Positions 2,273-63,084 of a DNA stretch of 64,000 bases are shown here, piece after piece. Each line of letters begins with the position of its first letter. Within the stretch, counting starts at the first letter, position 1. The notes beneath the pieces are model-generated. The model saw only the letters and a program-made list of their open reading frames with translations. It was not told the DNA's origin and ran no database searches. Position numbers and translations under genes: made by a program. This stretch comes from an uncultured Ardenticatenia bacterium (GTDB lineage: Bacteria; Chloroflexota; Anaerolineae; 4572-78; NAK82): assembly GCA_937127125.1 (NCBI GenBank), contig CAKZLO010000035.1, positions 186,001 through 250,000 on the forward strand. Direction: 5' to 3'.

Positions 2273-3413
2273 ATGAATCTTATGGCTGGCATTGTGTGTG
2301 AGGGATGTGGGCAAGCGCTAGTCTATAGACGTCGGTCGCTGCGGGAGAGGACACCTGGAGGGGAAGAGTGCGTTACGACGGGCGTATTACCACTGCCCCG
2401 GGTGTAACCGTGGTTTTTTTTCTGGATCAGCGGCTGAAGTTGGGGGAACATCGCTGGACACACCCGAGACGGTGAAGAGGACGGTTCGGTTAGGGATGGA
2501 GATGGCGTCCTACCGAGGGGCGGCGAAAGCGTGCACGGCCTTAACGAAGGTGGGGAGTATCAAAGAGTGGGTCGCAAGCGCTGGTGGGCACGGTGGCGGT
2601 TGGTGGGGATGGAGGCGCAGAAGGCCGCGACGACGACCCAGGTGCCGGGGCGGGATGAGGAGGTGATCACGGTGTGGCAGATGCCTAAGCCGGACAGTGG
2701 GTGATGTCGGTTGCGCTGGATGGGGTGATGATCCGTGTGCGGGATGAGGGCTGGAAGGGGGTACGTTGCGGAAGAACGCGACGAAGAGCAGGGAGTACAG
2801 CTGACCCGCCACAGTGATCGAGCCGGGCTGTGGGAGGCGAAGGAGTTTGCCAAGCAGCAATGGGTGGAAGGCTGTCGGCGTGGGTTGTAGCGGGCGTGCA
2901 AGAGGGTGGCTGTTGCCGACCGGGGTACATTGGATCTGGATGATCATTCTGATGGGCTATGCGCTCTGCGTCGAGATCATTGACTGGTGGCATGCGGTGG
3001 AGAAACTATGACGGATGGGCTATTGGGGGTTGAGGATGGGCAGGCAACCCGGTGGGTTGAGGCTCAGAAACAATGGCTGTGGAGCAGCAATCTGCGAGCA
3101 GTATTGGCAGCGATACGTGCCGAATGTCCCACGGGGTCAGCCTTCAAGTGCGGTGGTCTGGTCGACCATCAGTTATCTGTATCATAACCGGCGGCGGATG
3201 GGCTACGCTGGTTTTCGCCGTGCTGGTTACCCGATTGGCAGTGGTTCGGTCGAATCGACGTATAAGGTGGTGGTGCAGGCACGCATGAAACAGGCTGGTA
3301 TGCGTTGGAGCCGCCACAGCGCCCAGGCCATGTTGGCATTACGTTGTGCCCTGCTCGGCGAACGTTGGGACACCGTATGGCCAAGCTTGCTAACTGTCAC
3401 AATATTCGTTTAA
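2273..3413 (+). pseudogene. Decayed ISKra4-family transposase
   Basis: No single frame covers the region, but pieces of an ISKra4-type DDE transposase follow one another in different frames. A zinc-ribbon start (CEGCGQ ... YHCPGC, about 2290-2400) comes first. Next is a block with WIWM and IIDWWHAVEKLW (about 2930-3010), corresponding to the conserved DWYHA block. The C-terminal block (3180-3350) has GYPIGSGSVESTYK and ALRCALLGERW, which is typical of the family and carries the catalytic Glu. Several frameshifts and internal stops show that it is dead. No terminal inverted repeats were identified with confidence. Confidence 0.8.
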
Positions 3414-3420
3414 TTCTCTG

Positions 3421-3473
3421 AACAGATCCTGATGTTACAAAGCTTATACGATCTGTTTGGAATATGATATACT
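3421..3473 (+). promoter_or_regulatory. Putative promoter region with inverted repeat before nurA
   Basis: The arms AACAGATC (3421-3428) and GATCTGTT (3450-3457) form an inverted repeat with a 21-base spacer, just after the transposase remnant. An AT-rich stretch with TATGAT/TATACT (3463-3473) gives possible -10 boxes, but the -35 is poor. The repeat could be an operator of the nurA-herA operon or a leftover of the insertion sequence. Confidence 0.4.
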
Positions 3474-3530
3474 ACCATCACAAGAATTGCTCTCCACCCG
3501 TCCTATTACTTGCAATACATTCTGGGGACA

Positions 3531-4742
3531 ATGTTTGAGCGCAGTCGTGTCATCAACGCTCTCGAAGTGAAGAGGGATCGTTTTTCCGGCTACCAAGGGA
3601 CTGTACACGAACGTGCCAGGACCCTTGATGGAGCGTTAGAGCAGATGGCCTTCCTAAGCCGGGCTGAACTCGAAGCACGCCTGAAAGCAACTAATGTGGC
3701 GCGTCCAGGGGCCTTGCCTACAAAAGAGCAAGACAATGTCCATGCCGCTGTGGTCAAATTCGATGCCGATTGGCACAGTCACGAGGAAGCACGTAAATGG
3801 GCAAAGCAGGTCCTACGCGATCGGCCCACCTTTGCTGTGGATGGTTCGCAGATACCCCACTCACGCGATTTCTCGATCCCTGTGGCAGCTATCCAAATCG
3901 GTTGGTTCGAGAACCCACATTCTCCATCACAGACTTACACTAAAGACCTTTTCTTTGAGGTGCTGACGCCGGATGAGCTGACAACATATGAGGAGAACAC
4001 AGATACTCTCGATCCTACTGCCGATGTCGGTGCATTCCCCGGCATCTTGGTCAACCTTCGTCGCTTTGAAGGCGAATGCCACCGTATGGTTACATATATG
4101 CAGGAACGTGCTAACTGCGATCCCAAGCCTCTGTGCTTCTTCGATGGCTCGCTAGTTCTGTCCTTTGCACGCCACTTGAGCCCTCAACTGCGACAGGGCT
4201 ATCTTGACTCGCTCGTGAATATGTTGCGCACTTCGCAGGCGACCGGGGTGCCTCTAGTGGGCTATGTGGACACCAGTTATGCGCGTGATCTGGTGACCAT
4301 GCTCACACTTGTTTCTGGCCTGCCCACACCTGCCCACCTTAGCGATGGAGTACTATTGCATTCCCGGATGCGGTGGGGAGATCGCAGCCAGCTGTACTGG
4401 TGCGCACGGGATGACGAGGTGCTGCAGCTCTACGAGGAACAGGTAGGTCGAATCGCCTTCGCATACCTGAAGACAGGCACTATGTCCCCTCCTGCACGAG
4501 TGGAGTTCCCAGGTTGGGTGCTGGAGGATCAAGCGAGAGTAGAACACATCTTTGACCTGATCCGTGCTGAATGTATAGTGGGTAATGGCTATCCCTATGT
4601 CCTAGAAACAGCCGACGCCGTGGCTGTTATTTCAACAGAGGATCGCCAGCGTTTCTACGCTATCTTTCAACAGTTTGCAAAAAAAGAAGGCTTGGCGTTA
4701 TGCTACTCGCGTAAGGCACGCAGTAAGGCAATCCGCCGCTGA
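3531..4742 (+). CDS. nurA: NurA-domain 5'-3' nuclease
   Basis: This 403-residue protein carries a NurA domain. NurA is a 5'-3' exonuclease/endonuclease that works with the HerA translocase to resect DNA ends. The first metal-binding Asp lies in the VDGSQ motif (Asp104) and another in the FFDGSLV motif (Asp205). The RAHLS-like C-terminal part (residues ~270-390) has the acidic and aromatic pattern of the family. I chose ATG 3531; a TTG at 3510 would add seven residues. It is the first gene of a three-gene operon with a HAS-barrel-like protein and HerA, so the pair very likely acts together. In bacteria such pairs serve in repair or in defence, and the sequence alone does not decide between them. 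Confidence 0.88.
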   Translation: MFERSRVINALEVKRDRFSGYQGTVHERARTLDGALEQMAFLSRAELEARLKATNVARPGALPTKEQDNVHAAVVKFDADWHSHEEARKWAKQVLRDRPTFAVDGSQIPHSRDFSIPVAAIQIGWFENPHSPSQTYTKDLFFEVLTPDELTTYEENTDTLDPTADVGAFPGILVNLRRFEGECHRMVTYMQERANCDPKPLCFFDGSLVLSFARHLSPQLRQGYLDSLVNMLRTSQATGVPLVGYVDTSYARDLVTMLTLVSGLPTPAHLSDGVLLHSRMRWGDRSQLYWCARDDEVLQLYEEQVGRIAFAYLKTGTMSPPARVEFPGWVLEDQARVEHIFDLIRAECIVGNGYPYVLETADAVAVISTEDRQRFYAIFQQFAKKEGLALCYSRKARSKAIRR

Positions 4743-4809
4743 TTCCAGAGATTGTTTGTTTTCGCCCGTTGTGCCACAAAACCTTGAGAGTGGCCCAGGA
4801 GCACAGTCC

Positions 4810-5397
4810 ATGCAAATTGGCAAAATCGTCAAATCCAATAGCCATGTAGACTATGTATGTCAGATCAACAATGCTGGAGAGTTCAGCACATTGCCCCAGC
4901 CTCAGGACTATGGCTTTGGCACCTTCGTGCGCCTCGAGCTGAGCGACGAATCAGGCTATCTGGTTGGTCTGATTTATAGCACTATTCTGATGAACCCCGA
5001 GTTTGGCAACCTAGGGCCACGTCTGTCGCCACCGAGCGATCTGGAAATCTTTTCGCCCGACTATCTGCGCGAGCAGGCTACACTGGTAGGCATCCTAGCT
5101 GTCGGACAGGTGATGAGAAACGGTGAAGTGCATCAGGGGGTGCCCTTGCTAGCAGCTACTGTTAACGCAGCCGTGGAGACGATGTCACCCAAGGAGATCA
5201 GACATTTTCACGCACCTGGTGGCCAACTATCTGTGGCGTATATGCCCAGATTGCTGGCTGAAGGCGATGCAATCACTCCGCATTTGCTGCTCAAAGTGGT
5301 TGAGCAACTGAGCATGCTGTTTCCCGATAAGAAGCGTCAACTGGCCGTGTTACGCGGTAATCTCGCCTGGAAAGCAGCTGTGACACCGGCAGGTTGA
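4810..5397 (+). CDS. HAS-barrel-like accessory protein of the NurA-HerA operon
   Basis: This 195-residue protein lies between nurA and herA. The start at ATG 4810 has an AGGAG nine bases upstream. Its first ~75 residues (IGKIV, then a beta-rich GTFVRLELS ... YLVGLIY) resemble the HAS barrel found at the N-terminus of HerA/FtsK-HerA ATPases. The rest is alpha/beta with no catalytic motif I can name. Because HAS barrels mediate contact of HerA with its nuclease, this stand-alone copy may be an adaptor or an extra ring subunit. I do not recognise it as a named family. Confidence 0.75.
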   Translation: MQIGKIVKSNSHVDYVCQINNAGEFSTLPQPQDYGFGTFVRLELSDESGYLVGLIYSTILMNPEFGNLGPRLSPPSDLEIFSPDYLREQATLVGILAVGQVMRNGEVHQGVPLLAATVNAAVETMSPKEIRHFHAPGGQLSVAYMPRLLAEGDAITPHLLLKVVEQLSMLFPDKKRQLAVLRGNLAWKAAVTPAG

Positions 5398-5477
5398 GGA
5401 TCGATCTGGCCGGTCCCTCTGCTCATCTAGTAGAGCACGATGCAGAGGGCTAGTTGGTTGAAGGGAGGAGGTATTTT

Positions 5478-7142
5478 GTGAGCAGGCAATGCATTGGAAC
5501 GACCAAGGGCCCTGGCGAATCAACTTATGAATATACCTTCATAACCCCTGACCCAGAACGGCGTATCAAGACGGGTGAGTTTGTCTACTACGAAATGGAA
5601 GTAGAGGGCGAACTGCGCCAGATCTTAGGGCGCGTCACGCAACGCATCCCACTGCGCCTCTATCCAGATAGCTTTATGGCTGACCCGGGAGTACCCCCTG
5701 CTGAAATCGCTGCGATGCTGGGTTTCCATGAGCAGCAACATGAGCTTTTTGAAGTAACTGTGGTGGTGATGGGGTACTACCAGCCCAAACTAGGCGACTT
5801 TGTTAATCCTCGCGTCCCACCTGAATCAGGTAGCCCAATCTACATAGCCGAGGACGAATTGCTAGCACGGGTGCTCTCCAAGAAGCAAACGGGGGAGATC
5901 GGATCTGCCCACATTGGGTGGCTGTTGAGCCGCGATCCTGGTGCAGTGCCCGTTAACTTGGACGTGCGCAGCATTACCAGTACCCATTTGGCCATCATCG
6001 CCGGCACCGGCGCAGGTAAGAGCTACTTGGCCTCGGTGCTCATCGAAGAGATGATGAAACCCTATAATCGAGCCTGCGTGCTGATTGTGGATCCGCACGG
6101 CGAATACAGCACGCTGGATGAAATGATGGGCCACCAAGAGTTCTGTGCCGATGGCTACCAGCCGGAGGTGCATATTGTCCACCCCGATCAGATCCGCGTG
6201 CGCGTCTCCTCGCTTGAGCTGAGCGATTTCCGCTACCTGCTGCCCAATCTCTCCGAGAAGATGCACTTCCGTCTGGGCCAGACCTACTACGCTGTGAAGC
6301 GCAAGTACGGCGACAGATGGACGCTGGGACATTTCATGACGACGCTGCGTAGTGGAAACGAAGAACAAGCCATTACCGACCCCCAGAAGGACACCGAGCT
6401 CGACGAAGATCCTACGATCGGAGGGTTGGTGTGGCGTGTTCGCAGTGTGTTCGAAGCCTCACGCATCTTTCACGATTCGGAGCACCTGCCTTTAGAGAAG
6501 TTGTTCAGACCGGGACAATGTACCGTGTTGCAGCTGAACGAGATTGACCAGCGCGAACAGCAGCTGGTAGTGGCGACCTTGCTGCGACGGTTGTGGCGAG
6601 CACGCATGGACACCGAAAAGGGTCTCTCAAGGGAAGGTCAGGACTCCTACCTGCCCTATCCTGCATTTGTCCTCATAGAGGAAGCCCACAACTATGCCCC
6701 CGCAAATGCAGAAGTGGTTACTACGAGCATTCTCAAAACCATCCTGTCCGAGGGACGCAAGTTCGGTGTTGCAGTGGGTCTAATCAGCCAGCGTCCTGGC
6801 AAGCTGGACAGCGATGTACTATCACAATGTATGACACAATGTATCATGCGCATTGTGAACCCGATTGACCAGGCGCGCATCGCGGAGAGTGTCGAATCGG
6901 TGGGCAGGGACCTCTTGCACGAGCTACCGGCACTGTCAAAAGGGCAGGTGATCATCGCTGGCGGTGCGGTGAATACACCACTGTTGTGCCGCGTGCGCCC
7001 ACGGATCACACGGCATGGGGCTGAGGATCCTGACGCTCCGGCACGCTGGCAACAATACTTCTCACAAACGGAAACGGTCCGCCGCGAACGTGAGCGCGCG
7101 TTGCTGTTAGACCAACGACGCGGTAGCCGAATGTATAAATAA
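5478..7142 (+). CDS. herA: HerA-type DNA translocase (HAS barrel + ATPase)
   Basis: The 554-residue product has an N-terminal HAS barrel (about residues 5-135), a Walker A motif GTGAGKS (176-182), a Walker B with two acids in LIEEAHNYAP (around 401-402), and a C-terminal LSKGQVIIAGG strand typical of HerA. HerA hexamers pump DNA for NurA. The GTG start at 5478 is preceded by GGGAGGAGG, which is better placed than the upstream in-frame TTG (5454). The gene follows the HAS-barrel-like protein by 80 bases, in the same operon. Its length matches archaeal and bacterial HerA. Confidence 0.9.
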   Translation: MSRQCIGTTKGPGESTYEYTFITPDPERRIKTGEFVYYEMEVEGELRQILGRVTQRIPLRLYPDSFMADPGVPPAEIAAMLGFHEQQHELFEVTVVVMGYYQPKLGDFVNPRVPPESGSPIYIAEDELLARVLSKKQTGEIGSAHIGWLLSRDPGAVPVNLDVRSITSTHLAIIAGTGAGKSYLASVLIEEMMKPYNRACVLIVDPHGEYSTLDEMMGHQEFCADGYQPEVHIVHPDQIRVRVSSLELSDFRYLLPNLSEKMHFRLGQTYYAVKRKYGDRWTLGHFMTTLRSGNEEQAITDPQKDTELDEDPTIGGLVWRVRSVFEASRIFHDSEHLPLEKLFRPGQCTVLQLNEIDQREQQLVVATLLRRLWRARMDTEKGLSREGQDSYLPYPAFVLIEEAHNYAPANAEVVTTSILKTILSEGRKFGVAVGLISQRPGKLDSDVLSQCMTQCIMRIVNPIDQARIAESVESVGRDLLHELPALSKGQVIIAGGAVNTPLLCRVRPRITRHGAEDPDAPARWQQYFSQTETVRRERERALLLDQRRGSRMYK

Positions 7143-36372: not shown

Positions 36373-39300
36373 TTAAGGCTCTAACGCCTGACCGTCTCCC
36401 GTGGCAGCGTCGCGGATACCTTCGTCCACGAAGAAACGATCGGCAACCTGCTGGCCAGCGACCGTGCACACGAGCTCATAGTTACCTCCAATGGGTAGCG
36501 CGGCACCAGTGAACTGATCCGGATAAAATAGATAGCTCCAAGCGTCTCCGCGGATCATACCGGATGTCACTGCGACACTGCCGTCGGGCGCGTAAACGCT
36601 ACAAAGAAACTCATAGACCTCGTTCGGTGCGCCCCACACGTTTCGCAGACCCAGCGTAATGGACTGTCCTGGAGGATTGCTGGACGGCGCAAAGGTCTCC
36701 AGGGTTAAAGTGGGCGAATCGACAGGAGGGGCAAAAGGCACCGGCGATGGCTGCGGTAGTCCAACGGTCTCTTCGGGTACCTGAAACGAAGAGGGCGGTT
36801 CTGCTACCGGCGGTGGCACTGCAGGCGCGGGCGTAGGAGAAGGCAGTGCAGCCGGCAGCTGACGTGTGGGCAATGCTGGTATAATCACCTTTTCTGGAGT
36901 GGATATGTCCTCCGACGGCAAGGGCACCGAGGTAGCCACCGGCGCGCTGGACGGCTGCGCGACAGGCAATGATCGGCACGGATCAACCGTGAGCGTGGGC
37001 GAGGGTGTTGGTGATGTCGGTAGGACATGGTAACGCACCGCAACACGATGGGATGCGCCCAGCACTGGCGCAAAGCCGTCGACTAACCACTGGATAGTCT
37101 GTCCCTCAAGATCGGCGACATAGATGGCCTGGTGACCGTCACGGTTGGACTCGAAAACGACGTGGCGTCCGTCCGCGGTGAATACAGCGGCTGGTTGCCA
37201 TTCTGCATCCCGCGCCAGTTCGGTCCACTGACTGTTCTTCAGATTGACCAGGTACATGCTGCTGCGCTGTGGGAAAACATAGCCCAGCTGCACCAGCAGG
37301 TAATCACTATTAGCAGAGAAGAAGGCATCTGCATACCAATCAGCTGCCTGGCGTGCCGTGACCACGGGCTGCACTTGTGCCCCGTCCGTGCTGATGCGGT
37401 AAATATAGTAGTGGTGACCTTGCAGGAAGGTTGCCAACGCCCATTTGCCATCTGCTGAGAAACCCTGCCACTCTGCATAGGAACCCCCCTGCGGAATAGC
37501 AGTCAGGGAATTGTCATCACTGTCTGCTAGGTACAGGCGATACTCACCCGCACGTTGTAGCCACAAAGCCAACCGACGTTGGTCAGGTGAAAACTCTCCT
37601 CCCACTGTCTCGCCACTCAGCAAAAGTGAACTCTGCCCATTTGCCAAGTCGAGTAAGTGCAGCTCGAAGGGTGCGTCTGCTGCTGGCCTGATGTTCACCA
37701 AAAGTCTGTCTCCAGAAGGCGCGAACGAAGCCGTCGGCGGCGCAAAGCTGGTCGCCAGCTGCATAGCATTCCCCTTCTCAAGATCTGCCAGCCTCAGCGA
37801 GTAGGCTGAGGGATGCTGACATGTGTAATAGAACAGCCATCTTCCGTTGGGAGATACGAACGGACGGGACAGCTCCGCAAGGCACTCATCGCATACCCAT
37901 CTGTTGCTCGTGTGGTTCGCTAGCTGGATAGCGTGGATCACGTGGAAATTGCCCTCTTGCTGAAGCGTAGCGATTACACGCCACTGAGGATCCCAGCTGG
38001 TCTCCAGCGCTGACGCGGCCTCAGCCAGCATTGTGCGTTGAGCGTTCTCGACGTTCAGGACGATAGCTTTCCACGTTGCCCCCTTGCGCCAAGCGGCGAG
38101 GACTCTCTGACCATCCTCGGAACAATGTGCCCATCCTTCGTCTACATCCTCCGCGAGCACCTCCCGGTTGCTGCCGTCAGTGTCCACCAGATAAAGTGTT
38201 GTGCGCTCACTTTCCCTTGCCTGAACGACCACGCGCCAGCTGCGCCCACAGAAGGTGCCTGCCACCGATGACACATCACCGGAGAGCTGAACACGTCCTT
38301 CCCCTGTAAGGCGCATTACGTACAGGCTCTGCCGCTCGCCCTTTTTCACACGGTATAGCACCCCATTGTCCGCTGATATCTTGCTCATGCGTTCTGCAGG
38401 CGACTTAGAAGTAGGCAAAGCGCCAGCATCGGGAACTCTCCGTTGCGGCGAGAGTGTTTCCACCGGCAGTGCGGCAGTAGCTTGTGCGGATGCGGACAGA
38501 GTGGACGGCGTGAGAATCCCCCCACTACTGAGCGCCAGATATGCTGTGGTGAGGGCACTCAGCACAACGACCGTCACGGCACAAAGTGGAGCTACCCATC
38601 GTCGCATATTCCATTTCAACGGCCTAAACCGGCGAACCTTACATGGTAACCCGGCGGAGGCAGGTTGCATCTGGAACGCTGGCCGCGTCGCTCGGGCGGC
38701 TTCGTCTTCCGAGAGCGCACTGCTTTGCAGCACTGCTTTACGAAGTGCACACGCGAAGGCGCCGGCAGATTGGAAACGGTCAGCTGGGTTAATTGCCAGA
38801 GCCTTAAGGACAACGTTTTTCACCTCGTCTGTCACCTCAGGATAGCGTGTGAAGGTCATCTCAGGTGGCTCGGTGGCGCGTCTCAGCACAATTGCGAAAG
38901 GTGTCTCTGCGTTGTGTGGTACATCTCCGGTGAGAATTTCGTACACGATCACGCCGAGCGAGTATACATCGGCACGATGATCGAAGGGTAATGCTTGCCC
39001 CTGTTCGGGCGACATGTAGGCCGGCGTGCCTACGCCCAGCCCCGATTGGGTCAGGTCATTGGAGTCGTACGGTGTCTTGGCCAAGCCAAAATCGGTGAGC
39101 AAAGCCCATCGGCCATCCATCAGGATATTGCTGGGCTTCACATCACGGTGAACGATGCCATGGTGGTGAGCATGGTCGAGCGCAGCCGCCACTTGGCAAA
39201 CCACGTCCACAACGCGCATCAAGGTCATAGGAGAGCTCATTTCGTCCTTCAGCGTTCGAGAGCCTTCGACATAGCGCATCACAATGTAGCGCAGCCCAGA

Positions 39301-39546
39301 ATGCTCGCCGAAGTCATAGACAGGTAGGATGTTGGGATGCTGCAATGCAGCAACCGCGCGAGCTTCTCGGACAAAACGACGCGTGAATTCTGCCCTGTCG
39401 GCATGAAATGGTGACAGAACCTTGAGCGCCACGTAGCGATCCAGGTCAGGCTGGTAAGCTTTATAGACGGTAGAGACACCGCCCCCGCCGATTGGCTCGA
39501 TAACCCGATACTTGCCGATCATGCGGCCAATGATTGAGGTATCCAT
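36373..39546 (-). CDS. Membrane Ser/Thr protein kinase with extracellular beta-propeller
   Basis: The 1057-residue receptor-like kinase has a Hanks-type kinase domain at residues ~12-275: [14 protein letters not shown] loop, ALKVL lysine, [10 protein letters not shown] catalytic loop, DFGLAK and [10 protein letters not shown]. One membrane helix follows (about residue 320, [20 protein letters not shown]). Outside the membrane lies a TolB/WD40-like propeller ([36 protein letters not shown] blades). Next come a ~100-residue Pro/Ser/Thr-rich linker and a C-terminal Ig-like domain ([16 protein letters not shown] ...). I chose ATG 39546. The GGGGVS loop lacks the usual second Gly-x-Gly spacing only slightly, so the kinase looks active. 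The ligand is unknown. Confidence 0.92.
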
Positions 39547-39947
39547 AGACAGTGATCCCTTTTGTTGTATTGCTACGCATTTCCTTATCCGAAAGCACAA
39601 AGAAAAGATCTCGCCTTGTCCAACAGAGCTGAACTTATCTGGGCAAGACAAGACCTTCCGCCAGCCTGCGACATTGCAGGAAGGTATGCCATCCAGACGG
39701 AAACCACACACCGCTTGCTAGGATAGAGGATGCGTGGATCGCTTCTTAATCTGCTATGAGCTTGGGGTATTTGTTGGTGTCAAAAGTTTTACGGCGAGAG
39801 TCAGATTTATGACAAGACCTTATGACAAATCCATTATATCAAGAATTTTTGAAAAAATCAACCCTCTGTTAAAAGACTTGCAATGTCTGTCCTACGGATG
39901 CTTGCGCCATCTCTCACAAAACGTTCAGAATCAATCACTTTGCACCA
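39547..39947. other. Divergent intergenic region, no gene seen
   Basis: About 400 bases between the kinase gene and the regulator promoter carry no convincing reading frame. The phrase GACAAGACCTT occurs twice (39655-39665 region and 39811-39821 region), a direct repeat of unknown meaning. Confidence 0.45.
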
Positions 39948-39977
39948 TTGACGACCATCCTACATCACGGCTATCAT
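39948..39977 (+). promoter_or_regulatory. Promoter of the regulator/sugar operon
   Basis: TTGACG (39948-39953), an 18-base spacer and TATCAT (39972-39977) lie 62 bases before the regulator start. Confidence 0.6.
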
Positions 39978-40038
39978 AGAGATGTGGTAAATTACGTCCG
40001 TCCATATTCACGAATGATCACCACCTGGGGGTATATAG

Positions 40039-41829
40039 ATGATTCCCAGCCAGCGTGACGTGGCAATACTCAGCGCCCTGCAGCAGCGCGGAGTGATCAC
40101 CGTGGCGGAGATCTGCACAATGTGTCATTGCTCACCGGTGACGGCACGGCGCGACCTGGAGCGGCTTGAACAACAAGGCCTGCTTCTGCGAACCCATGGT
40201 GGTGCTATATCTGCCAATATGATGGAACATCCTCCTTCCACGGCCCATTGGCATATCGCCCAGGAGACGCGTACAGCCCTTCTGGACCGCTGTGATGTGC
40301 TGGTTGCGACCCCTGCCGAGACTCTAGCGACCCGCCTGCTACTACAGCGGGCGCTCCGAAACGGGATCCCTATCGTAGCTGAGTCGACCATTTGTGAAGG
40401 CGCCACCACCGCTATCTCTATCAACGACTATCGCGCCGGTGTGGAATTGGGACGTTGGGTGGGTTCCCACGCGCCTAACCTTATAGGAGGTGCAGTCAAA
40501 GTGCTATATGTCGGTGCCAAACGTCCTAACTGTGAAGCGCGCGGTCGTGGATTTGCCGAAGGGTTACGCAGCACCTTGCTCACCGGATATACTCTACTCC
40601 AGGTGGACGGGGAAGGGTTATGGCACCGCGCTTATCAAATCGCTAAGGATGCCTTCCTGGTACACCCGGGTATCAATGTGATCTGCGGTGTTAACGACGA
40701 CTCAGCCCTGGCAGCATTGGAAGCCTACCGTACTGCTGGGGGTGACGAACGTCAGCTGCTTGTGGTTTCGTTTGGTCTGGAAGGTGACAGGGCACGTGAT
40801 GTACTGAGCAGCGGAGGCCCTTTCAAGGCAAGCATTGCCATGTTCCCTGAAGTGGTTGGACGGGCATGTGTTGATGCAGCTATCTGTGCACATCATCGCT
40901 GCGCCCTGCCCCGCCACATCTTCACCCCTTATGCTCTAGTCACCCCCGATTCGCTTGAACAATACTATCGCAGGGAGGGGCAAGACGGCGTGTGGTCCAT
41001 CAACTGGCCTGTAGTCACACACTTACCAAGCGCCAGCACAGCTTACAACTTGCTAGGACACTGCCACGAACGCCCCAAGCCGCGACGCATAGGCCTGGTG
41101 GTAATCTTCAGTGAACACGATTGGTATCGTAATGTGCAGCGCACTGTGCGCACATATGCTCACTCCTTGGGCATTCACCTAGAAGCAGTAGATGCCAGCC
41201 AGGATGCTGAGCAAGAGATCGAGATACTGAAGTGCAGCATTGGACGTGCGGCCGCGCAGTTGGTGAAACCGGGTGACATCGTCATTCTGGACAGTGGGCG
41301 TACCACAAGTTACCTAGCGCAGCACCTGCGCGGCAGACAAAACATTACCGTCATCACCAATTCGATACCTGTATTGGCCGAGCTGGGAAATGAGCCAGGC
41401 ATCACCGTCGTGGCCACCGGAGGCACAGTACGACGGGAAAGCCTGGCGCTTTCAGGGCCAGCGGCGGAAGCTTCTCTGTACGAGCTGCGTGCGGACAAAG
41501 CTTTTGTCACTGGCACCGGCGTGAGTCTGGATTTCGGTCTTTCCAACACCAATATTCAAGAAGCAGCGGTTAAGCTAATGATGCTAAAGGCGGCGCGCGA
41601 GGCGATTCTGCTGGCTGACCACACCAAGCTGGGCGTCGAGTCACTGGTAAAAGTAGCACCACTACAGATGATTCATCGGTTGGTTACCGACGCCGGCATC
41701 AGCCCACAACTGCGCTGGGCGTTCACCGAGCGCGGCATCGAGGTGACTACTGCTGGTGATCTGACTGTTGATGACGAGGCAGTGTCCCCGCGACCGACCG
41801 ATTGGGCACAGTCCGGAATGGTTAGGTAG
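40039..41829 (+). CDS. DeoR-type regulator fused to a sugar-binding (periplasmic-binding-like) domain
   Basis: The 596-residue protein has three parts. Residues 1-56 form a DeoR helix-turn-helix (VTARRDLERLEQQGLLLRTHGG). Residues ~85-310 look like most of a ribose/LacI-type sugar-binding domain (VLVATPAE, IPIVAEST, RGRGFAEGL, VICGVNDDSALAALEAY). Residues ~399-560 form the DeoR sensor (IGRAAAQLVKPGDIVILDSGRTTSYLA ... TGTGVSL ... ILLADHTKLG). Between them, 348-396 (RRIGLVVIFSEHDWYRNVQ ... VDASQDAEQEIE) resembles the first strand-helix unit of a binding domain, placed after the rest. It probably senses both a free sugar and a sugar phosphate and controls the transporter operon that follows. Confidence 0.85.
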   Translation: MIPSQRDVAILSALQQRGVITVAEICTMCHCSPVTARRDLERLEQQGLLLRTHGGAISANMMEHPPSTAHWHIAQETRTALLDRCDVLVATPAETLATRLLLQRALRNGIPIVAESTICEGATTAISINDYRAGVELGRWVGSHAPNLIGGAVKVLYVGAKRPNCEARGRGFAEGLRSTLLTGYTLLQVDGEGLWHRAYQIAKDAFLVHPGINVICGVNDDSALAALEAYRTAGGDERQLLVVSFGLEGDRARDVLSSGGPFKASIAMFPEVVGRACVDAAICAHHRCALPRHIFTPYALVTPDSLEQYYRREGQDGVWSINWPVVTHLPSASTAYNLLGHCHERPKPRRIGLVVIFSEHDWYRNVQRTVRTYAHSLGIHLEAVDASQDAEQEIEILKCSIGRAAAQLVKPGDIVILDSGRTTSYLAQHLRGRQNITVITNSIPVLAELGNEPGITVVATGGTVRRESLALSGPAAEASLYELRADKAFVTGTGVSLDFGLSNTNIQEAAVKLMMLKAAREAILLADHTKLGVESLVKVAPLQMIHRLVTDAGISPQLRWAFTERGIEVTTAGDLTVDDEAVSPRPTDWAQSGMVR

Positions 41830-41976: not shown

Positions 41977-43347
41977 ATGGCGAAGCAAAAAGGGACAATT
42001 GCAGTTTGTCTGCTCATAGTAGTTGGCCTGCTGGCTGGCCTCTTAGTGCCTGGTGCCGCACCGGCTATGGCGCAGGAGCCTGTCACCATCAAGGCCATCA
42101 TGATGCAAGGGGGTGGCTGGGTCGGTGTCACTCGGGAGCTGATCCCCGACTTTACAGCCAAGACCGGCATCAACGTGGAAATCGAGGAACAGCCCTATGG
42201 CGCGTTGAAGGACAAAGCCATCCTGGAGATGAGCGCCAAGACGGGCGTATATGATATCGTCGTATTAGATACTGCCTGGCTAGCTGAGTTCGCAGAAGCC
42301 GGCTACGTGGCAGACCTGACCCCGCTCATCGAAAAGTACAAGACCCCAGTGGATGGCTATTTGCCACCTCAGGCGCAAGCGTGTGTCCATCAGGGAAAGT
42401 ACTACGCGTTGCCTTTCGAGATCGACACGCGCGTGCTGGGTGTCAATATGGAAATGGCTCAAGCAGCTGGTATTACAGAACCACCCAAGACTATTGACGA
42501 GTTCGTGGATGCTGCCATCCGTATGACGCTGGACAAGAACGGCAAGAACCCTCGCGACCCAGACTTCGACAAGGACAACATTGTGCAATACGGCTTTGTC
42601 CACACCGGCCTCTCCGGCCCCTATATCGCGCTCGATTTCGCACCCTTTATGTGGGGTATGGGCGGCGACATTCTCAGAGAGAATGGTCCAAAGGATTTCA
42701 CAGTGGTGGTAGATAGCCCGGAGACTATCGCTGCCCTCACGATGTACACCGAACTGCTGACCAAGTGGCATACCTCGCCGCCTGCCAGCACCACCTTTGA
42801 AGAGAATCAGCAGTGTGATGTGCTGCGCCTCGGAAAGGGTGCTATGGGTATTCTGCCCAGCCCATCCCACGCCGGGCACCTGAATGGCAGCTTGGGATTC
42901 GAAGACACTAAGGTCAAAGGCAAGTTCAAGTTCGTCCCCACGCCGGCTAACCCGCCCAACAAGCCCAAGACACGCACTGGGATCTGGGCAATATTCATCC
43001 CGGCCGATTCGAAGCACATTGATGAGGCTTTCCAATTTGCCCAGTGGATCACCACCGACAATGAAGCCGCCGTCAAGTATGCCAAACTGGGTGGTGCCTC
43101 ACCGTGGATGGCAGCCTGGTCACATCCCGACGTGACCGCCGTCTATCCATTCCTGCCTGAAGTTATGGAGGTAATGCTGGTCTCCTGGGCCGAGCCGCCT
43201 ATCCCAGAATGGGGACAGATCCGTCAGATCTTCGGCGAGATGGCCAGCGAGGCATTGACACAGCAGAAGACCCCTGAACAGGCGGTGAAGGATGCCGCTG
43301 AACGGATGCGACAAGTGTTGAAAGACGCGGGCTATCCCAATCCCTAA
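41977..43347 (+). CDS. Sugar ABC transporter substrate-binding protein (family 1)
   Basis: The 456-residue protein has a signal peptide (cut near AMAQEP) and a family-1 extracellular solute-binding fold. Typical features are TIKAIMMQGGGW at the start, PDFTAKTGINVEIEEQPYG, YDIVVLDTAWLAEFAEAGYVADLTPLI and YYALPFEIDTRVLGVNMEM. There is no lipobox, so it is either free or held by the permeases. Relatives bind oligosaccharides, polyols or glycerol-phosphate; the ligand is not predictable. The two permeases follow, and no ATPase gene is adjacent, so a shared MsmK-type ATPase is likely. It lies behind the DeoR-fusion regulator. Confidence 0.92.
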   Translation: MAKQKGTIAVCLLIVVGLLAGLLVPGAAPAMAQEPVTIKAIMMQGGGWVGVTRELIPDFTAKTGINVEIEEQPYGALKDKAILEMSAKTGVYDIVVLDTAWLAEFAEAGYVADLTPLIEKYKTPVDGYLPPQAQACVHQGKYYALPFEIDTRVLGVNMEMAQAAGITEPPKTIDEFVDAAIRMTLDKNGKNPRDPDFDKDNIVQYGFVHTGLSGPYIALDFAPFMWGMGGDILRENGPKDFTVVVDSPETIAALTMYTELLTKWHTSPPASTTFEENQQCDVLRLGKGAMGILPSPSHAGHLNGSLGFEDTKVKGKFKFVPTPANPPNKPKTRTGIWAIFIPADSKHIDEAFQFAQWITTDNEAAVKYAKLGGASPWMAAWSHPDVTAVYPFLPEVMEVMLVSWAEPPIPEWGQIRQIFGEMASEALTQQKTPEQAVKDAAERMRQVLKDAGYPNP

Positions 43348-43397
43348 TTGGTGAGGGAGCCTTCACGTCAGAGCGTCCTGGTACGCGAGGAGAGGGC

Positions 43398-43435
43398 GGA
43401 GGGTATAACAGGTTTTCCCAACCGTTATACCCTCC
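43398..43435 (+). terminator. Intra-operon hairpin between binding protein and permease genes
   Basis: GGAGGGTATAAC (43398-43409) pairs perfectly with GTTATACCCTCC (43424-43435). GGTT/AACC extends the stem inside after one bulged A. It stands 50 bases after the binding-protein stop. It has no T-run, so it more likely stabilises the upstream mRNA or causes partial termination than acts as a full terminator. Confidence 0.65.
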
Positions 43436-43464
43436 AGACCATCAATCGCACAGGGAGGTAAATC

Positions 43465-44442
43465 ATGGCAGGTTTCAACACCTGCACAGAACGAAGAGAA
43501 CAAATGGAAAGTGAGCCATATCTTCTGCCGTTGCACCGCCGGGCGGGACGTAGTCTGTTTTCTATCCTATCGGAAAGACGCTATGCTGGCTATGTCTTCT
43601 TGGCACCGGCTCTGATCTACCTGATTGCTTTCAGCGTGTATCCACTACTCTACTCCGTTAACGTAAGTCTCAGACAGTACATCCTTTCTAAGCCTTATTT
43701 GGGTATGCCATGGGTAGGATTGGAGAACTTCTGGCGTGTTTTGAGTGACAGCCACTTTCATTACTCATTGGCCGCTACACTCTACTTCACCGTCGCAGCC
43801 GTCAGCATAGAGTTATTGCTCGGTCTTGGCATTGCTTTGCTATTAAACCGGCCGATCTTAGGGGTTGGCATTATTCGCACCATTGTGGTCATACCTATGA
43901 TGATCGCGCCGGTAGTGGTAGGACTGTCGTGGAAATATATGCTTGACTTCGATACAGGGGTGTTGAACTATTTTATCCGGCAGCTTGGCATCCAGCCGCC
44001 AAACTGGTTGGGCGACGCGAAAGCGGTAATCCCGGCGTTAGTTATCACCGATGTCTGGGAATGGACACCCCTTTTTGTGCTGTTGTTGCTGGCCGGCCTG
44101 CAAGCAATGCCCCAGGAACCGTTTGAGGCAGCGAAAGTGGACGGGGCATCCAGCTGGCAGAGCTTTGTGCATCTTACGCTGCCTTTCTTGCGACCTTTCA
44201 TCTTGATCGCATTGTTGTTGCGAGTGATCGACTCACTGCGCACGTTTGATATTCCATTCGTTATGACCGCCGGCGGCCCGGGTCGGGCAACAGAATTCGC
44301 CAGTCTATATGCCTACCGGCAGGCATTTTCCTACTACTATGTCAGCGTAGGCATTGCAGCTGCCTTCATTATCCTGATAGTCATTACCCTCCTGTCCAAC
44401 TTGTTGGTCCGGGCACTCCCTATGCAGGAAGTGGAGGAGTGA
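43465..44442 (+). CDS. Sugar ABC transporter permease (MalF/UgpA type)
   Basis: The 325-residue inner-membrane protein has six helices. The EAA loop that contacts the ATPase reads EPFEAAKVDGASSWQSFVHLTLPFLRP (residues ~215-245). The start RYAGYVFLAPALIYLIAFSVYPLLYSV is typical of MalF/UgpA-type permeases. GGGAGG precedes the ATG. The next permease starts three bases after its stop. It forms a heteromeric pore with that protein for the substrate of the 41977 binding protein. Confidence 0.92.
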   Translation: MAGFNTCTERREQMESEPYLLPLHRRAGRSLFSILSERRYAGYVFLAPALIYLIAFSVYPLLYSVNVSLRQYILSKPYLGMPWVGLENFWRVLSDSHFHYSLAATLYFTVAAVSIELLLGLGIALLLNRPILGVGIIRTIVVIPMMIAPVVVGLSWKYMLDFDTGVLNYFIRQLGIQPPNWLGDAKAVIPALVITDVWEWTPLFVLLLLAGLQAMPQEPFEAAKVDGASSWQSFVHLTLPFLRPFILIALLLRVIDSLRTFDIPFVMTAGGPGRATEFASLYAYRQAFSYYYVSVGIAAAFIILIVITLLSNLLVRALPMQEVEE

Positions 44443-44444
44443 AT

Positions 44445-45284
44445 ATGAGACGAAGGAGCATCGGACTGCACACGGTGGGCACAGTTCTCACCTATATTGG
44501 TGTGATATTAGTGCTAATCTGGGTGCTTTTTCCGGTTGTCTGGGTGGCTATGGGCTCCCTAAAGGCCAGAGAACTTGCAGCAGCGGTCCCACCAGTATGG
44601 ATCTTCACACCCAGTTTCGATAACTACAGCTCTGCTTTCTTACGTCGTAATTTCGGTATTCTCTTCCTCAATAGTCTCATCGCCACCACTGCCAGCACTG
44701 CAGTCGTATTGTTACTGGGTTCTATGGCTGGTTATGCATTGGCACGTTTCAAGATCGTGGCCAAGCAGAACATCCTCTTCTGGATACTCTCTACGCGTAT
44801 GTTTCCGCCCATTGCCGCCGTCATTCCCATCTTCCTGTTGTTTAACACTCTCAGGCTAATCGACACGCGGCAAGGATTGGTGCTGTTGTATATCGCGTTC
44901 AATTTGCCTTTCGCCATATGGATCATGCGAGGGTTCTTCGCCGAAATACCCTCCGATCTGGACGATGCAGCTATGGTGGATGGTTGTTCGCCATGGCAAG
45001 CTTTCACCAAGGTGATCCTTCCCCTGGCAGCACCAGGTTTAGCGGCAACAGCTATCTTCTGCATGATGTTTTCTTGGAACGAGTTTCTATTTGCCCTGAT
45101 CATCAGCCGCGCTCAGACGCAGACGCTGCCTATCGGCGTGATGGGATTCATTACCCAGCGCGGCGTGTTGTGGGGTGAAATGTCGGCAGCATCGACCGTG
45201 ATCATGGCGCCGATGATCATCTTTACCTTCTTGGTACAGCGCTATCTGATCCGAGGTCTGACTTTCGGTGCTGTAAAAGGCTAA
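44445..45284 (+). CDS. Sugar ABC transporter permease (MalG/UgpE type)
   Basis: This 279-residue six-helix permease has the EAA loop IPSDLDDAAMVDGCSPWQAFTKVILPLAAPG and the usual MalG-type C-terminus QRYLIRGLTFGAVKG. ATG 44445 lies seven bases after a GGAGG in the end of the previous gene; a GTG at 44439 overlaps that stop and would add two residues. It pairs with the upstream permease. The MtaA/UroD-like gene follows after 22 bases in the same operon. Confidence 0.92.
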   Translation: MRRRSIGLHTVGTVLTYIGVILVLIWVLFPVVWVAMGSLKARELAAAVPPVWIFTPSFDNYSSAFLRRNFGILFLNSLIATTASTAVVLLLGSMAGYALARFKIVAKQNILFWILSTRMFPPIAAVIPIFLLFNTLRLIDTRQGLVLLYIAFNLPFAIWIMRGFFAEIPSDLDDAAMVDGCSPWQAFTKVILPLAAPGLAATAIFCMMFSWNEFLFALIISRAQTQTLPIGVMGFITQRGVLWGEMSAASTVIMAPMIIFTFLVQRYLIRGLTFGAVKG

Positions 45285-45306
45285 CCACAAGCGGAGATAA
45301 ATCATT

Positions 45307-46368
45307 ATGAATCGCAAAGAACGACTTCTGGCTGCCATCAGACTTCAACAACCCGACCGCGTGCCTATGTTCGACTTCCTTTTTCAACAACCTATGTACG
45401 AGGCATTGATTGGCCGTCGCCCCGAGAGCTACAATGGGCCAGATGCGGTGGCATTGGCGCTAGCTCTCGATCACGACGGTGTCTGGTTGCCTTTCGGTGG
45501 CTACACCGGGTTCAAACCCAAGAAGCTGGATGAGGACACATATGTCGACGAATGGGGCACAACCTACCGCCACAATGCCTCGTCATGGCCGATCGACGCC
45601 CCGATAGATTATCCTATCAAGTCACGCGCTGATCTGACGCGTTATCGTCCTCCTGATCCGACGTTGCCGGGCCGTCTATCGGAACTGGAGGCAGCACGAG
45701 ATATGCCTCACGATAACCTAGCTCTCCTAGCCGGCGTGCAAGGGCCATTCACCACTGCCTGGATGCTGATGGGCTATGAACAAATCTGCTACGCTCTTTA
45801 CGACGATCCTGAGATGCTTGTGGAAATCTTTAAGATTTCGAACGAATACTTCAAAGAGGCAACACGCCTCTGCGTGCAAGCAGGTTGCGACGGCATCTGG
45901 TTGGCGGACGATCTGGGCGACAGCACGCGCGGATTCGTCAAGTTGGACCTCTTCCGCAAATATGTGCTGCCATACATAGCCGAGCTGGCCGAGTATATGG
46001 CCAACCTGGGAGTACCCGTACTACTCCACTCTTGCGGACACATCAAGGAGTATTTGCCTGATTTAGCTCAGACGAAGATCAGCGCGGTCCATCCTTTACA
46101 ACGCACAGCCGGTATGGATCTACGCTGGGTCAAGGAACACTATGGCCACCGATTCTGTATCATCGGCAACATCGACTCGTCGCGCACCCTGCCATTCGGC
46201 ACTCCAGAGGAGGTGGCTGCTGAGGTTCGCGAGGCAATCGACATCGCGGCGCCGGGCGGGGGCTATGTGCTAGCTTCGGACCATTCGCTGCACGATGGCA
46301 TACCGGTGGAGAATATTATCACCATGTTCCGCGTTGGCCGCGAGTATGGGGGCAATTTCTATCAGTGA
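45307..46368 (+). CDS. Uroporphyrinogen decarboxylase/MtaA-CmuA-like family protein
   Basis: The 353-residue protein belongs to the UroD/MtaA superfamily: NRKERLLAAIRLQQPDRVPMFD at the start, DGIWLADDLGDS in the middle and LLHSCGHIKEYLPDL with the HxCGH zinc-type motif found in corrinoid methyltransferases. Methyltransferase members move a methyl group between cobalamin and thiols; true heme-pathway UroD lacks this motif. Its place as last gene of a sugar-transport operon is odd, but many genomes of this type carry it there. It is therefore likely a catabolic enzyme of unknown reaction rather than a heme enzyme. Confidence 0.85.
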   Translation: MNRKERLLAAIRLQQPDRVPMFDFLFQQPMYEALIGRRPESYNGPDAVALALALDHDGVWLPFGGYTGFKPKKLDEDTYVDEWGTTYRHNASSWPIDAPIDYPIKSRADLTRYRPPDPTLPGRLSELEAARDMPHDNLALLAGVQGPFTTAWMLMGYEQICYALYDDPEMLVEIFKISNEYFKEATRLCVQAGCDGIWLADDLGDSTRGFVKLDLFRKYVLPYIAELAEYMANLGVPVLLHSCGHIKEYLPDLAQTKISAVHPLQRTAGMDLRWVKEHYGHRFCIIGNIDSSRTLPFGTPEEVAAEVREAIDIAAPGGGYVLASDHSLHDGIPVENIITMFRVGREYGGNFYQ

Positions 46369-61239: not shown

Positions 61240-63084
61240 ATGAGAAAGCATCTCTTCGGTTTGCTGGCAGCAGTTGTGATCACAAGTATGCTCACGGCTC
61301 CGCTAGCGGCAGCAGCTGAGCCGCCGAGCCAGGAAAAGAAACTGACAATAGCGTTGTCGTTGCCGGACTTGGCGTTTCCGTTCTTTGTGTTTATGGAGGC
61401 GCAGGTGAAAGCAGAAGCCGCCAAGTTGGGCAACATAGAGATTGTCACCCTAGATGGTCAGAACCAAGTGCCCAAGCAGACGGCGGATATGGAGGCCGCG
61501 ATTGTCAAGAAATATGACGGTGTGCTGATCAGCCCCATCACCGCCGAGGGCATGGCACCCGCTGTCAAGCAAGTTGTGGATGCAGGCATCCCTGTTGTCA
61601 CCATTGACCGCACAGTGGTGGGGGTGGACACTCTGGCCCACGTGGGTGCTGACAACGTGTTGGGTGGTGAGCAGCAAGGTCTTGCCTTGCTCAATCTGTT
61701 CCCGCAAGGAGCTACTATCTTCGAATTAACAGGGGAGCCAGGCAGTTCGCCAGCCATCGACCGGTCAAAGGGTCTGCACAACATCATAGACAGCCGCCCT
61801 GAAATCAAAGTAGCCTGCCAGCAGACAGCGCGGTTCCGGCGGGAGATGGCCCTGACAGTGACAGAGAACTGTCTGGGGGCCACACCTGAGCCAGACGCTG
61901 TGATCGCGGCAAACGATGAGATGGCATTCGGTGCAATTGAGGCACTCAAGGCGCGCAACTTGGCCGAGAAGGTGGTAGTGATCGGCTACGACGCCCTGCC
62001 AGAGGCGTTGGTGATGGTGCGAGACGGTCAGTTGTACGGCACCATCGAGCAGTTCCCTGGCGAACAATCCCGCACTGCGTTGCGCGTCTTGGTGAGCTAT
62101 CTGCGCGACGGTGTCAAGCCATCTCAGCACGATATCTTCATCCCGCCCAAGCTGATCACCAAGGACAACCTGATGGAAGCCGAACGCATCGGCGAACTTG
62201 AAGGTGCACAGAAGCCACTGACAATAGCGTTGTCGTTGCCGGACTTGGCGTTTCCGTTCTTTGTGTTTATGGAGGCGCAGGTGAAAGCAGAAGCCGCCAA
62301 GTTGGGCAACATAGAGATTGTCACCCTAGATGGTCAGAACCAAGTGCCCAAGCAGACGGCGGATATGGAGGCCGCGATTGTCAAGAAATATGACGGTGTG
62401 CTGATCAGCCCCATCACCGCCGAGGGCATGGCACCCGCTGTCAAGCAAGTTGTGGATGCAGGCATCCCTGTTGTCACCATTGACCGCACAGTGGTGGGGG
62501 TGGACACTCTGGCCCACGTGGGTGCTGACAACGTGTTGGGTGGTGAGCAGCAAGGTCTTGCCTTGCTCAATCTGTTCCCGCAAGGAGCTACTATCTTCGA
62601 ATTAACAGGGGAGCCAGGCAGTTCGCCAGCCATCGACCGGTCAAAGGGTCTGCACAACATCATAGACAGCCGCCCTGAAATCAAAGTAGCCTGCCAGCAG
62701 ACAGCGCGGTTCCGGCGGGAGATGGCCCTGACAGTGACAGAGAACTGTCTGGGGGCCACACCTGAGCCAGACGCTGTGATCGCGGCAAACGATGAGATGG
62801 CATTCGGTGCAATTGAGGCACTCAAGGCGCGCAACTTGGCCGAGAAGGTGGTAGTGATCGGCTACGACGCCCTGCCAGAGGCGTTGGTGATGGTGCGAGA
62901 CGGTCAGTTGTACGGCACCATCGAGCAGTTCCCTGGCGAACAATCCCGCACTGCGTTGCGCGTCTTGGTGAGCTATCTGCGCGACGGTGTCAAGCCATCT
63001 CAGCACGATATCTTCATCCCGCCCAAGCTGATCACCAAGGACAACCTGATGGAAGCCGAACGCATCGGCGAGATTACGCAGTAG
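61240..63084 (+). CDS. Sugar-binding protein with two identical tandem binding domains
   Basis: The 614-residue protein has one signal peptide (cut near AAAAEP) and then two copies of a complete ~285-residue ribose-type sugar-binding domain (LTIALSLPDLAFPFFVF ... KDNLMEAERIGE). The copies are identical in DNA over 855 bases and are joined by seven codons (LEGAQKP region). Each copy has VIAANDEMAFGAIEAL and the TIDRTVVGVDT hinge region. Normal binding proteins of this family carry one domain in ~310-340 residues. It is the last gene of the transporter operon and is followed by a hairpin. It is either a very recent duplication or an assembly artefact. Confidence 0.88.
   Translation: MRKHLFGLLAAVVITSMLTAPLAAAAEPPSQEKKLTIALSLPDLAFPFFVFMEAQVKAEAAKLGNIEIVTLDGQNQVPKQTADMEAAIVKKYDGVLISPITAEGMAPAVKQVVDAGIPVVTIDRTVVGVDTLAHVGADNVLGGEQQGLALLNLFPQGATIFELTGEPGSSPAIDRSKGLHNIIDSRPEIKVACQQTARFRREMALTVTENCLGATPEPDAVIAANDEMAFGAIEALKARNLAEKVVVIGYDALPEALVMVRDGQLYGTIEQFPGEQSRTALRVLVSYLRDGVKPSQHDIFIPPKLITKDNLMEAERIGELEGAQKPLTIALSLPDLAFPFFVFMEAQVKAEAAKLGNIEIVTLDGQNQVPKQTADMEAAIVKKYDGVLISPITAEGMAPAVKQVVDAGIPVVTIDRTVVGVDTLAHVGADNVLGGEQQGLALLNLFPQGATIFELTGEPGSSPAIDRSKGLHNIIDSRPEIKVACQQTARFRREMALTVTENCLGATPEPDAVIAANDEMAFGAIEALKARNLAEKVVVIGYDALPEALVMVRDGQLYGTIEQFPGEQSRTALRVLVSYLRDGVKPSQHDIFIPPKLITKDNLMEAERIGEITQ
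61341..62195 (+). repeat. Copy 1 of an 855-bp tandem direct repeat
   Basis: The repeat period is 876 bases. I compared the two copies line by line and saw no difference. Sequences just before the copies differ (AGGAAAAGAA against GCACAGAAGCC). Confidence 0.9.
62217..63071 (+). repeat. Copy 2 of the 855-bp tandem direct repeat
   Basis: Identical to 61341-62195 by eye, separated from it by 21 bases. The copies end at different junctions (ACTTGAAGG against GATTACGCAG). Confidence 0.9.

Follow-up and report, generated by a model that had tools for sequence, protein, structure and literature searches.

The stretch analyzed here, referred to as the window, comprises 64,000 nucleotides of contig CAKZLO010000035.1 from an uncultured Ardenticatenia bacterium and carries, at 40039-41829 on the + strand, a gene which very probably encodes a DeoR-type regulator with a type I sugar-binding domain, complete in its elements though circularly permuted, inserted in the linker between its helix-turn-helix (HTH) and its DeoRC sensor domain, for which a mechanism is proposed below. 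A permuted binding domain between the two DeoR halves had been suggested by a first-pass annotation made from the sequence alone, and three lines of evidence now support it: the profile rotation, sister proteins that are not permuted, and a structure model that is confident as a single domain.

Domain organization

The reading frame is open throughout and encodes 596 amino acids, all parts of which are described here on the + strand. An HTH_DeoR DNA-binding domain (residues 6-59, 40054..40215; Pfam PF08220, E 1.8e-15, 56.9 bits against a cut-off of 21) is followed by a variable linker (residues 61-78, 40219..40272), in which the predicted local distance difference test score (pLDDT) of the model falls below 50 at residues 62-78 and which corresponds to a spacing of 15-30 amino acids in 34 homologs. 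The next block, PC, spans the binding domain from strand 3 to its C-terminus (residues 79-318, 40273..40992) and was delimited with the Peripla_BP_4 profile and a PC hidden Markov model (HMM), which matched secreted binding proteins with E-values of 2e-64 to 8e-74. A further linker, which connects the original C-terminus with the original N-terminus (residues 319-346, 40993..41076; 26-34 amino acids in all 34 homologs), precedes the block PN, the strand-helix-strand unit that normally opens the binding domain and is here displaced to its end (residues 347-398, 41077..41232; Peripla_BP_4 profile positions 1-49 and PN HMM). The PN and PC HMMs were built from 20 homologs, and the limits 85-310 and 348-396 drawn earlier for the two pieces agree with theirs. 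Finally, the DeoRC (ISOCOT) sensor domain occupies residues 398-570 (41230..41748; Pfam PF00455 at 398-551, E 2.8e-47, 161 bits), and its model matches E. coli DeoR (7l6l) with a template modeling (TM) score of 0.92, normalised to the target (Foldseek). The proposed order of DeoR HTH, later binding-domain parts, first unit, and DeoR sensor was thus recovered from Pfam and NCBIfam matches as well as from the homologs.

This organization departs from that of each family whose parts it contains. HTH_DeoR and DeoRC are usually joined directly by a short linker in DeoR-family proteins, a layout that is not strictly defining, while about 335 residues separate them here. The protein begins with its HTH domain and has no signal peptide, unlike the secreted Peripla_BP_4 proteins. 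It also differs from the LacI family, in which HTH_LacI precedes an unpermuted domain, since its HTH is of the DeoR type and its binding domain is permuted.

Evidence for circular permutation

The Pfam Peripla_BP_4 match at residues 79-281 (E 1.5e-15) starts at profile position 50 and ends at 250 of 258; the strand-helix-strand unit with which the profile opens is therefore absent from its usual place. Similarly, in a sequence search of the PDB, RbsB and related chains aligned to residues 86-281 beginning at chain residue 59. When the two pieces were searched separately, as the first-pass annotation had advised, Peripla_BP_4 was the sole Pfam match of residues 336-405, over profile positions 1-49 (E 0.064, 13 bits), which complement the positions found for 79-281. 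NCBIfam YtfQ aligned its own N-terminus to residues 346-403 (E 6e-4).

Restoring the native order by placing residues 347-398 before 79-330 produced one continuous Peripla_BP_4 match over profile positions 1-250 of 258 with 78.3 bits, compared with 50.4 bits for residues 79-330 alone and 50.0 bits when a shuffled PN was placed before them. As the native order raises the score and a shuffled PN adds nothing, the match in two pieces is not due to chance. Two homologs of about 40% identity responded to the same rotation with a rise from 52.8 to 70.4 bits in one and from 57.1 to 68.6 bits in the other. In the PDB sequence search, rotation let the query align with RbsB from chain residue 4 and added 12 to 16 bits (38.6 to 54.6 bits for 7e7m, 30.6 to 42.4 bits for 1drj). 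A truncated relic or a plain linker was rejected on account of the rotation test with its shuffled control and of the secreted relatives described below, which have the native order.

Residues 76-408 were modeled alone with AlphaFold2, and the model, in which both PN strands and the helix are formed, reached a predicted TM score (pTM) of 0.88 and a pLDDT of 90.3. By our own estimate, a randomly placed PN, which makes up about one fifth of this chain, would be expected to leave the pTM not much over 0.8. By both the rotated profile and the model, the fold elements of a Peripla_BP_4 protein are present in this domain, in a changed order.

The order HTH-PC-PN-DeoRC is kept in 34 of 34 distinct complete homologs, in every one of which PN follows PC, and an assembly error or a chance fusion was rejected on this ground. 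All of these homologs belong to Chloroflexota. Of 396 genomes sampled from the class, 22 had at least one match and some of these two or more, and among 400 genomes sampled across the phylum the permuted regulators were found in this class only, one genome of another class carrying secreted relatives only. A scan of 84,980 species genomes likewise returned Chloroflexota only, in a search with two short conserved motifs that distant members may escape.

Sugar pocket and effector site

The sugar contacts of E. coli RbsB are N13, F15, F16, D89, R90, R141, F164, N190, D215, and Q235. In the alignment to RbsB, the motif H360-D361-W362-Y363 (41116..41127) places H, W, and Y at N13, F15, and F16, and these three are the most conserved residues of PN (H360 34/34, W362 33/34, and Y363 34/34 in the regulators; H 6/7, W 7/7, and Y 6/7 in seven secreted relatives). 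N219, E248, and M268, at the positions of N190, D215, and Q235, are similarly conserved, with N219 in 34/34; at D89, R90, R141, and F164 the aligned residues are variable or different. Because the residues at contact positions are conserved and common to both groups, the predicted pocket would be completed by the displaced PN and would resemble that of the secreted relatives, but its sugar need not be ribose.

According to a previous study, the inducing phosphosugars are bound by D210/K213 of LacR and D206/K209 of UlaR (PMC10991401). Sequence comparison showed that the corresponding DeoR-family pair is intact in the window protein, in D527-H-T-K530 (41617..41628), and that the DSGRTT loop is retained as well. 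D527 is present in all 34 homologs, whereas the effector lysine is found in 17/34 of them against 21/24 ordinary DeoR proteins, and T422 in 10/34 against 21/24. The near-invariant pocket set against these losses indicates tighter constraint on the sugar pocket of the insert than on the phosphosugar site, and detection of phosphosugars may have been abandoned in half of the family. That one chain responds to both free sugar and sugar phosphate, as had been supposed, is plausible for the window protein, whose two sets of site residues are complete, but not in general, since half of the homologs have lost the effector lysine.

Secreted relatives and possible origin

A search with the PN and PC HMMs identified seven secreted sugar-binding proteins in which PN stands before PC with few residues between them (E 2e-5 to 7e-12 for PN, 1e-61 to 4e-75 for PC). 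They are the nearest relatives of the window binding domain, with an identity of 33-41% (median 38%), and the two that were tested covered Peripla_BP_4 at positions 1-256 and 1-257 of 258. In a FastTree phylogeny of the PC block, the regulators alone were supported at 0.786, and the clade uniting them with their sister group, the seven secreted proteins, at 0.964. At locus L089, the permuted regulator is directly followed by a secreted relative (2973-4226), a CUT2 permease, and an ATPase, and at loci L051-L053 and L055 about 3 kb separate the regulator from a secreted relative downstream. The inserted domain very probably descends from a binding protein that was secreted and served a CUT2 sugar ATP-binding cassette (ABC) transporter.

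A second kind of fusion, with the order HTH_DeoR-DeoRC-Peripla_BP_4, occurs at loci L031-L035; the binding domain there is unpermuted and C-terminal, groups with other secreted proteins (support 1.0), and is sister to the binding proteins encoded in L033 and L035. One of these fusions, L031 3461-5221 (- strand), lies in the same genome. Since the permuted regulators and the C-terminal fusions fall in separate groups of the tree, DeoR regulators have probably captured binding proteins twice, by two routes.

If circular permutation arises by duplication, it must pass through a tandem copy, which is its classic intermediate. Binding-protein genes duplicated in tandem and in frame were found in the window at 61240-63084 and at L030, L039, L043, L046, and L093, and their copies are 85 to 100% identical in DNA sequence. 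The duplication in the window (+ strand) is a 614-amino-acid reading frame with two RbsB-like copies at a spacing of 876 bases and with 820 bases identical between them, and it is either a recent event or an assembly effect. Older, diverged duplications are those of L030, L039, L046, and L093, the last of which (4371-6857, - strand) is an 829-amino-acid reading frame with two SBP_bac_1 domains, a CUT1-type binding protein in tandem with 88% protein identity.

Gene neighborhood

Downstream of the regulator, genes on the same strand extend over 41977..46368 and encode a solute-binding protein of the CUT1 type, a pair of permeases, and a URO-D-like protein; judging from their position, they are probably an operon under the control of the regulator. 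The neighbors of the homologs include CUT1 and CUT2 transporters, kinases of the ROK, FGGY, PfkB, and GHMP families, aldolases, GH31, and GH38. Genes of the URO-D-like kind (uroporphyrinogen decarboxylase family) recur beside these regulators and sugar transporters, in the window at 45307-46368 and at L037, L038, L049, and L093.

The upstream region 39712-40038 contains a 9-base direct repeat, TTATGACAA, twice at 39807-39828, and several blocks conserved with L037, which carries an 80% identical ortholog; it is a possible operator or promoter candidate on the basis of these features. Beyond it, a divergent serine/threonine kinase gene with a long C-terminal region is located at 36373-39711 (- strand), and a similar gene lies upstream of the L037 ortholog.

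Proposed mechanism and alternatives

The secondary structure assigned by DSSP to the AlphaFold2 models has a single helix at residues 386-406 (41194..41256), in which helix 2 of the binding domain runs into DeoRC. The permutation cut lies in helix 2, with the new ends only about 6 residues apart in the native protein; they are thus neighbors in its fold, an arrangement that would keep HTH and DeoRC near each other on one lobe. In the cytoplasmic regulator, the inserted domain would therefore loop out and not push HTH and DeoRC apart, and helix 386-406 would couple the N-lobe of the binding domain to DeoRC. From these features we infer, as the most likely mechanism, an allosteric route in which free sugar in the cell would close the two lobes over the pocket completed by H360, W362, and Y363, and this closure would pull on helix 386-406 and on the HTH linker, altering the arrangement of HTH and DeoRC in the oligomer. 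The rearranged oligomer would then release the operator of the neighboring sugar transport operon, although tightening instead of release may also be envisaged. The downstream sugar phosphate would probably be a second input, through DeoRC with D527 and K530. A conserved two-input repressor of this kind, in which the permuted domain reads free sugar, DeoRC reads sugar phosphate, and a continuous helix couples them, is proposed here tentatively, as a possibility that deserves serious weight.

Several observations weigh against the explanation as a whole. The packing of residues 348-396 on 85-310 was judged indirectly, from pTM and pLDDT, and the full-length AlphaFold2 model reached a pTM of only 0.65 (pLDDT 84), so the mutual arrangement of the domains is not predicted. 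Several RbsB contacts differ in the protein (Q235 to M268, D89 to S116), and the transporters beside the homologs vary, so the neighbors do not point to one ligand. A search of the host genome found no secreted relative of the regulator's kind, and the transporter beside the window gene is of the other type, CUT1; the sugar must therefore enter via another transporter, perhaps the adjoining CUT1 one. As well, the operator search upstream of the gene gave no convincingly conserved operator, only the 9-base direct repeat and patchy conservation.

The strongest alternative explanation, possible but less likely than not, holds that the permuted domain is the sole working sensor in most of the family and that DeoRC serves mainly as an oligomerisation scaffold. 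The near-invariance of H360, Y363, and N219 (34/34 each) beside the frequent loss of the effector lysine and T422 speaks for it, while the invariance of D527 and the retention of K530 and the DSGRTT loop in the window protein speak against it. An exchange between subunits, with PN of one completing the binding domain of its partner so that the permutation interlocks the dimer, might be permitted by the 26-34 residues before PN and is compatible with a monomer model, but it is improbable, the isolated single chain 76-408 being predicted as one confident domain. That residues 348-396 are a mere N-terminal extension of DeoRC, and the binding domain a truncated relic, is hardly credible: PN directly adjoins DeoRC, has a helix in common with that domain, and gives a weak Pfam match by itself, but the same unit precedes PC in the secreted relatives, and rotation gained 28 bits where the shuffled unit gained none.

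Relation to known systems and significance

DeoR regulators, type I domains as cytoplasmic sensors in the LacI family, and engineered permuted insertions are already known. Similar to AgaR, SrlR, GlpR, E. coli DeoR, and LacR, the window protein has an N-terminal HTH_DeoR, a C-terminal DeoRC, and the D/K effector pair, but its extra residues form a second ligand-binding domain. With the CUT2 type I (cluster B) binding proteins (RbsB/YtfQ-like, PF13407) it shares the profile up to position 250 or so and several contact positions; however, its domain is cytoplasmic, without a signal peptide, cut in helix 2, and placed inside a repressor. LacI/GalR repressors also carry a type I domain as a cytoplasmic sugar sensor behind a DNA-binding domain, yet they lack the DeoR-type HTH, the permutation, and the additional DeoRC. 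The fusions of L031-L035 likewise combine a DeoR regulator with a captured sugar-binding protein, but represent a separate lineage in which that protein is unpermuted and C-terminal.

A search of the open-access literature gave no description of a type I binding domain permuted in nature, either by itself or within a DeoR regulator. Engineered switches are the nearest parallel, such as the circularly permuted cpGltI inserted in a red fluorescent protein (PMC6335823), where a permuted binding protein is likewise inserted through its new adjacent ends; the window case is natural, is kept in 34 distinct homologs, and presumably has transcription as its output. The family would thus be a natural counterpart of a design used by engineers, in which a binding protein is permuted, given adjacent ends, and inserted elsewhere to obtain a switch, and evolution seems to be responsible for it here. 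The case is also a caution for annotation, since profile searches report a protein of this kind as DeoR with a binding domain that is truncated. If the two-input reading is true, the regulator may follow a logic in which, for example, release occurs only when uptake and phosphorylation are both running. An unpermuted parent-like protein is known and is sometimes encoded next door, and several of the same loci, like the window itself, carry tandem duplications; with a conserved family, such a parent, and such intermediates at hand, the origin, the allostery, and the two-input sensing of these regulators are directly testable.
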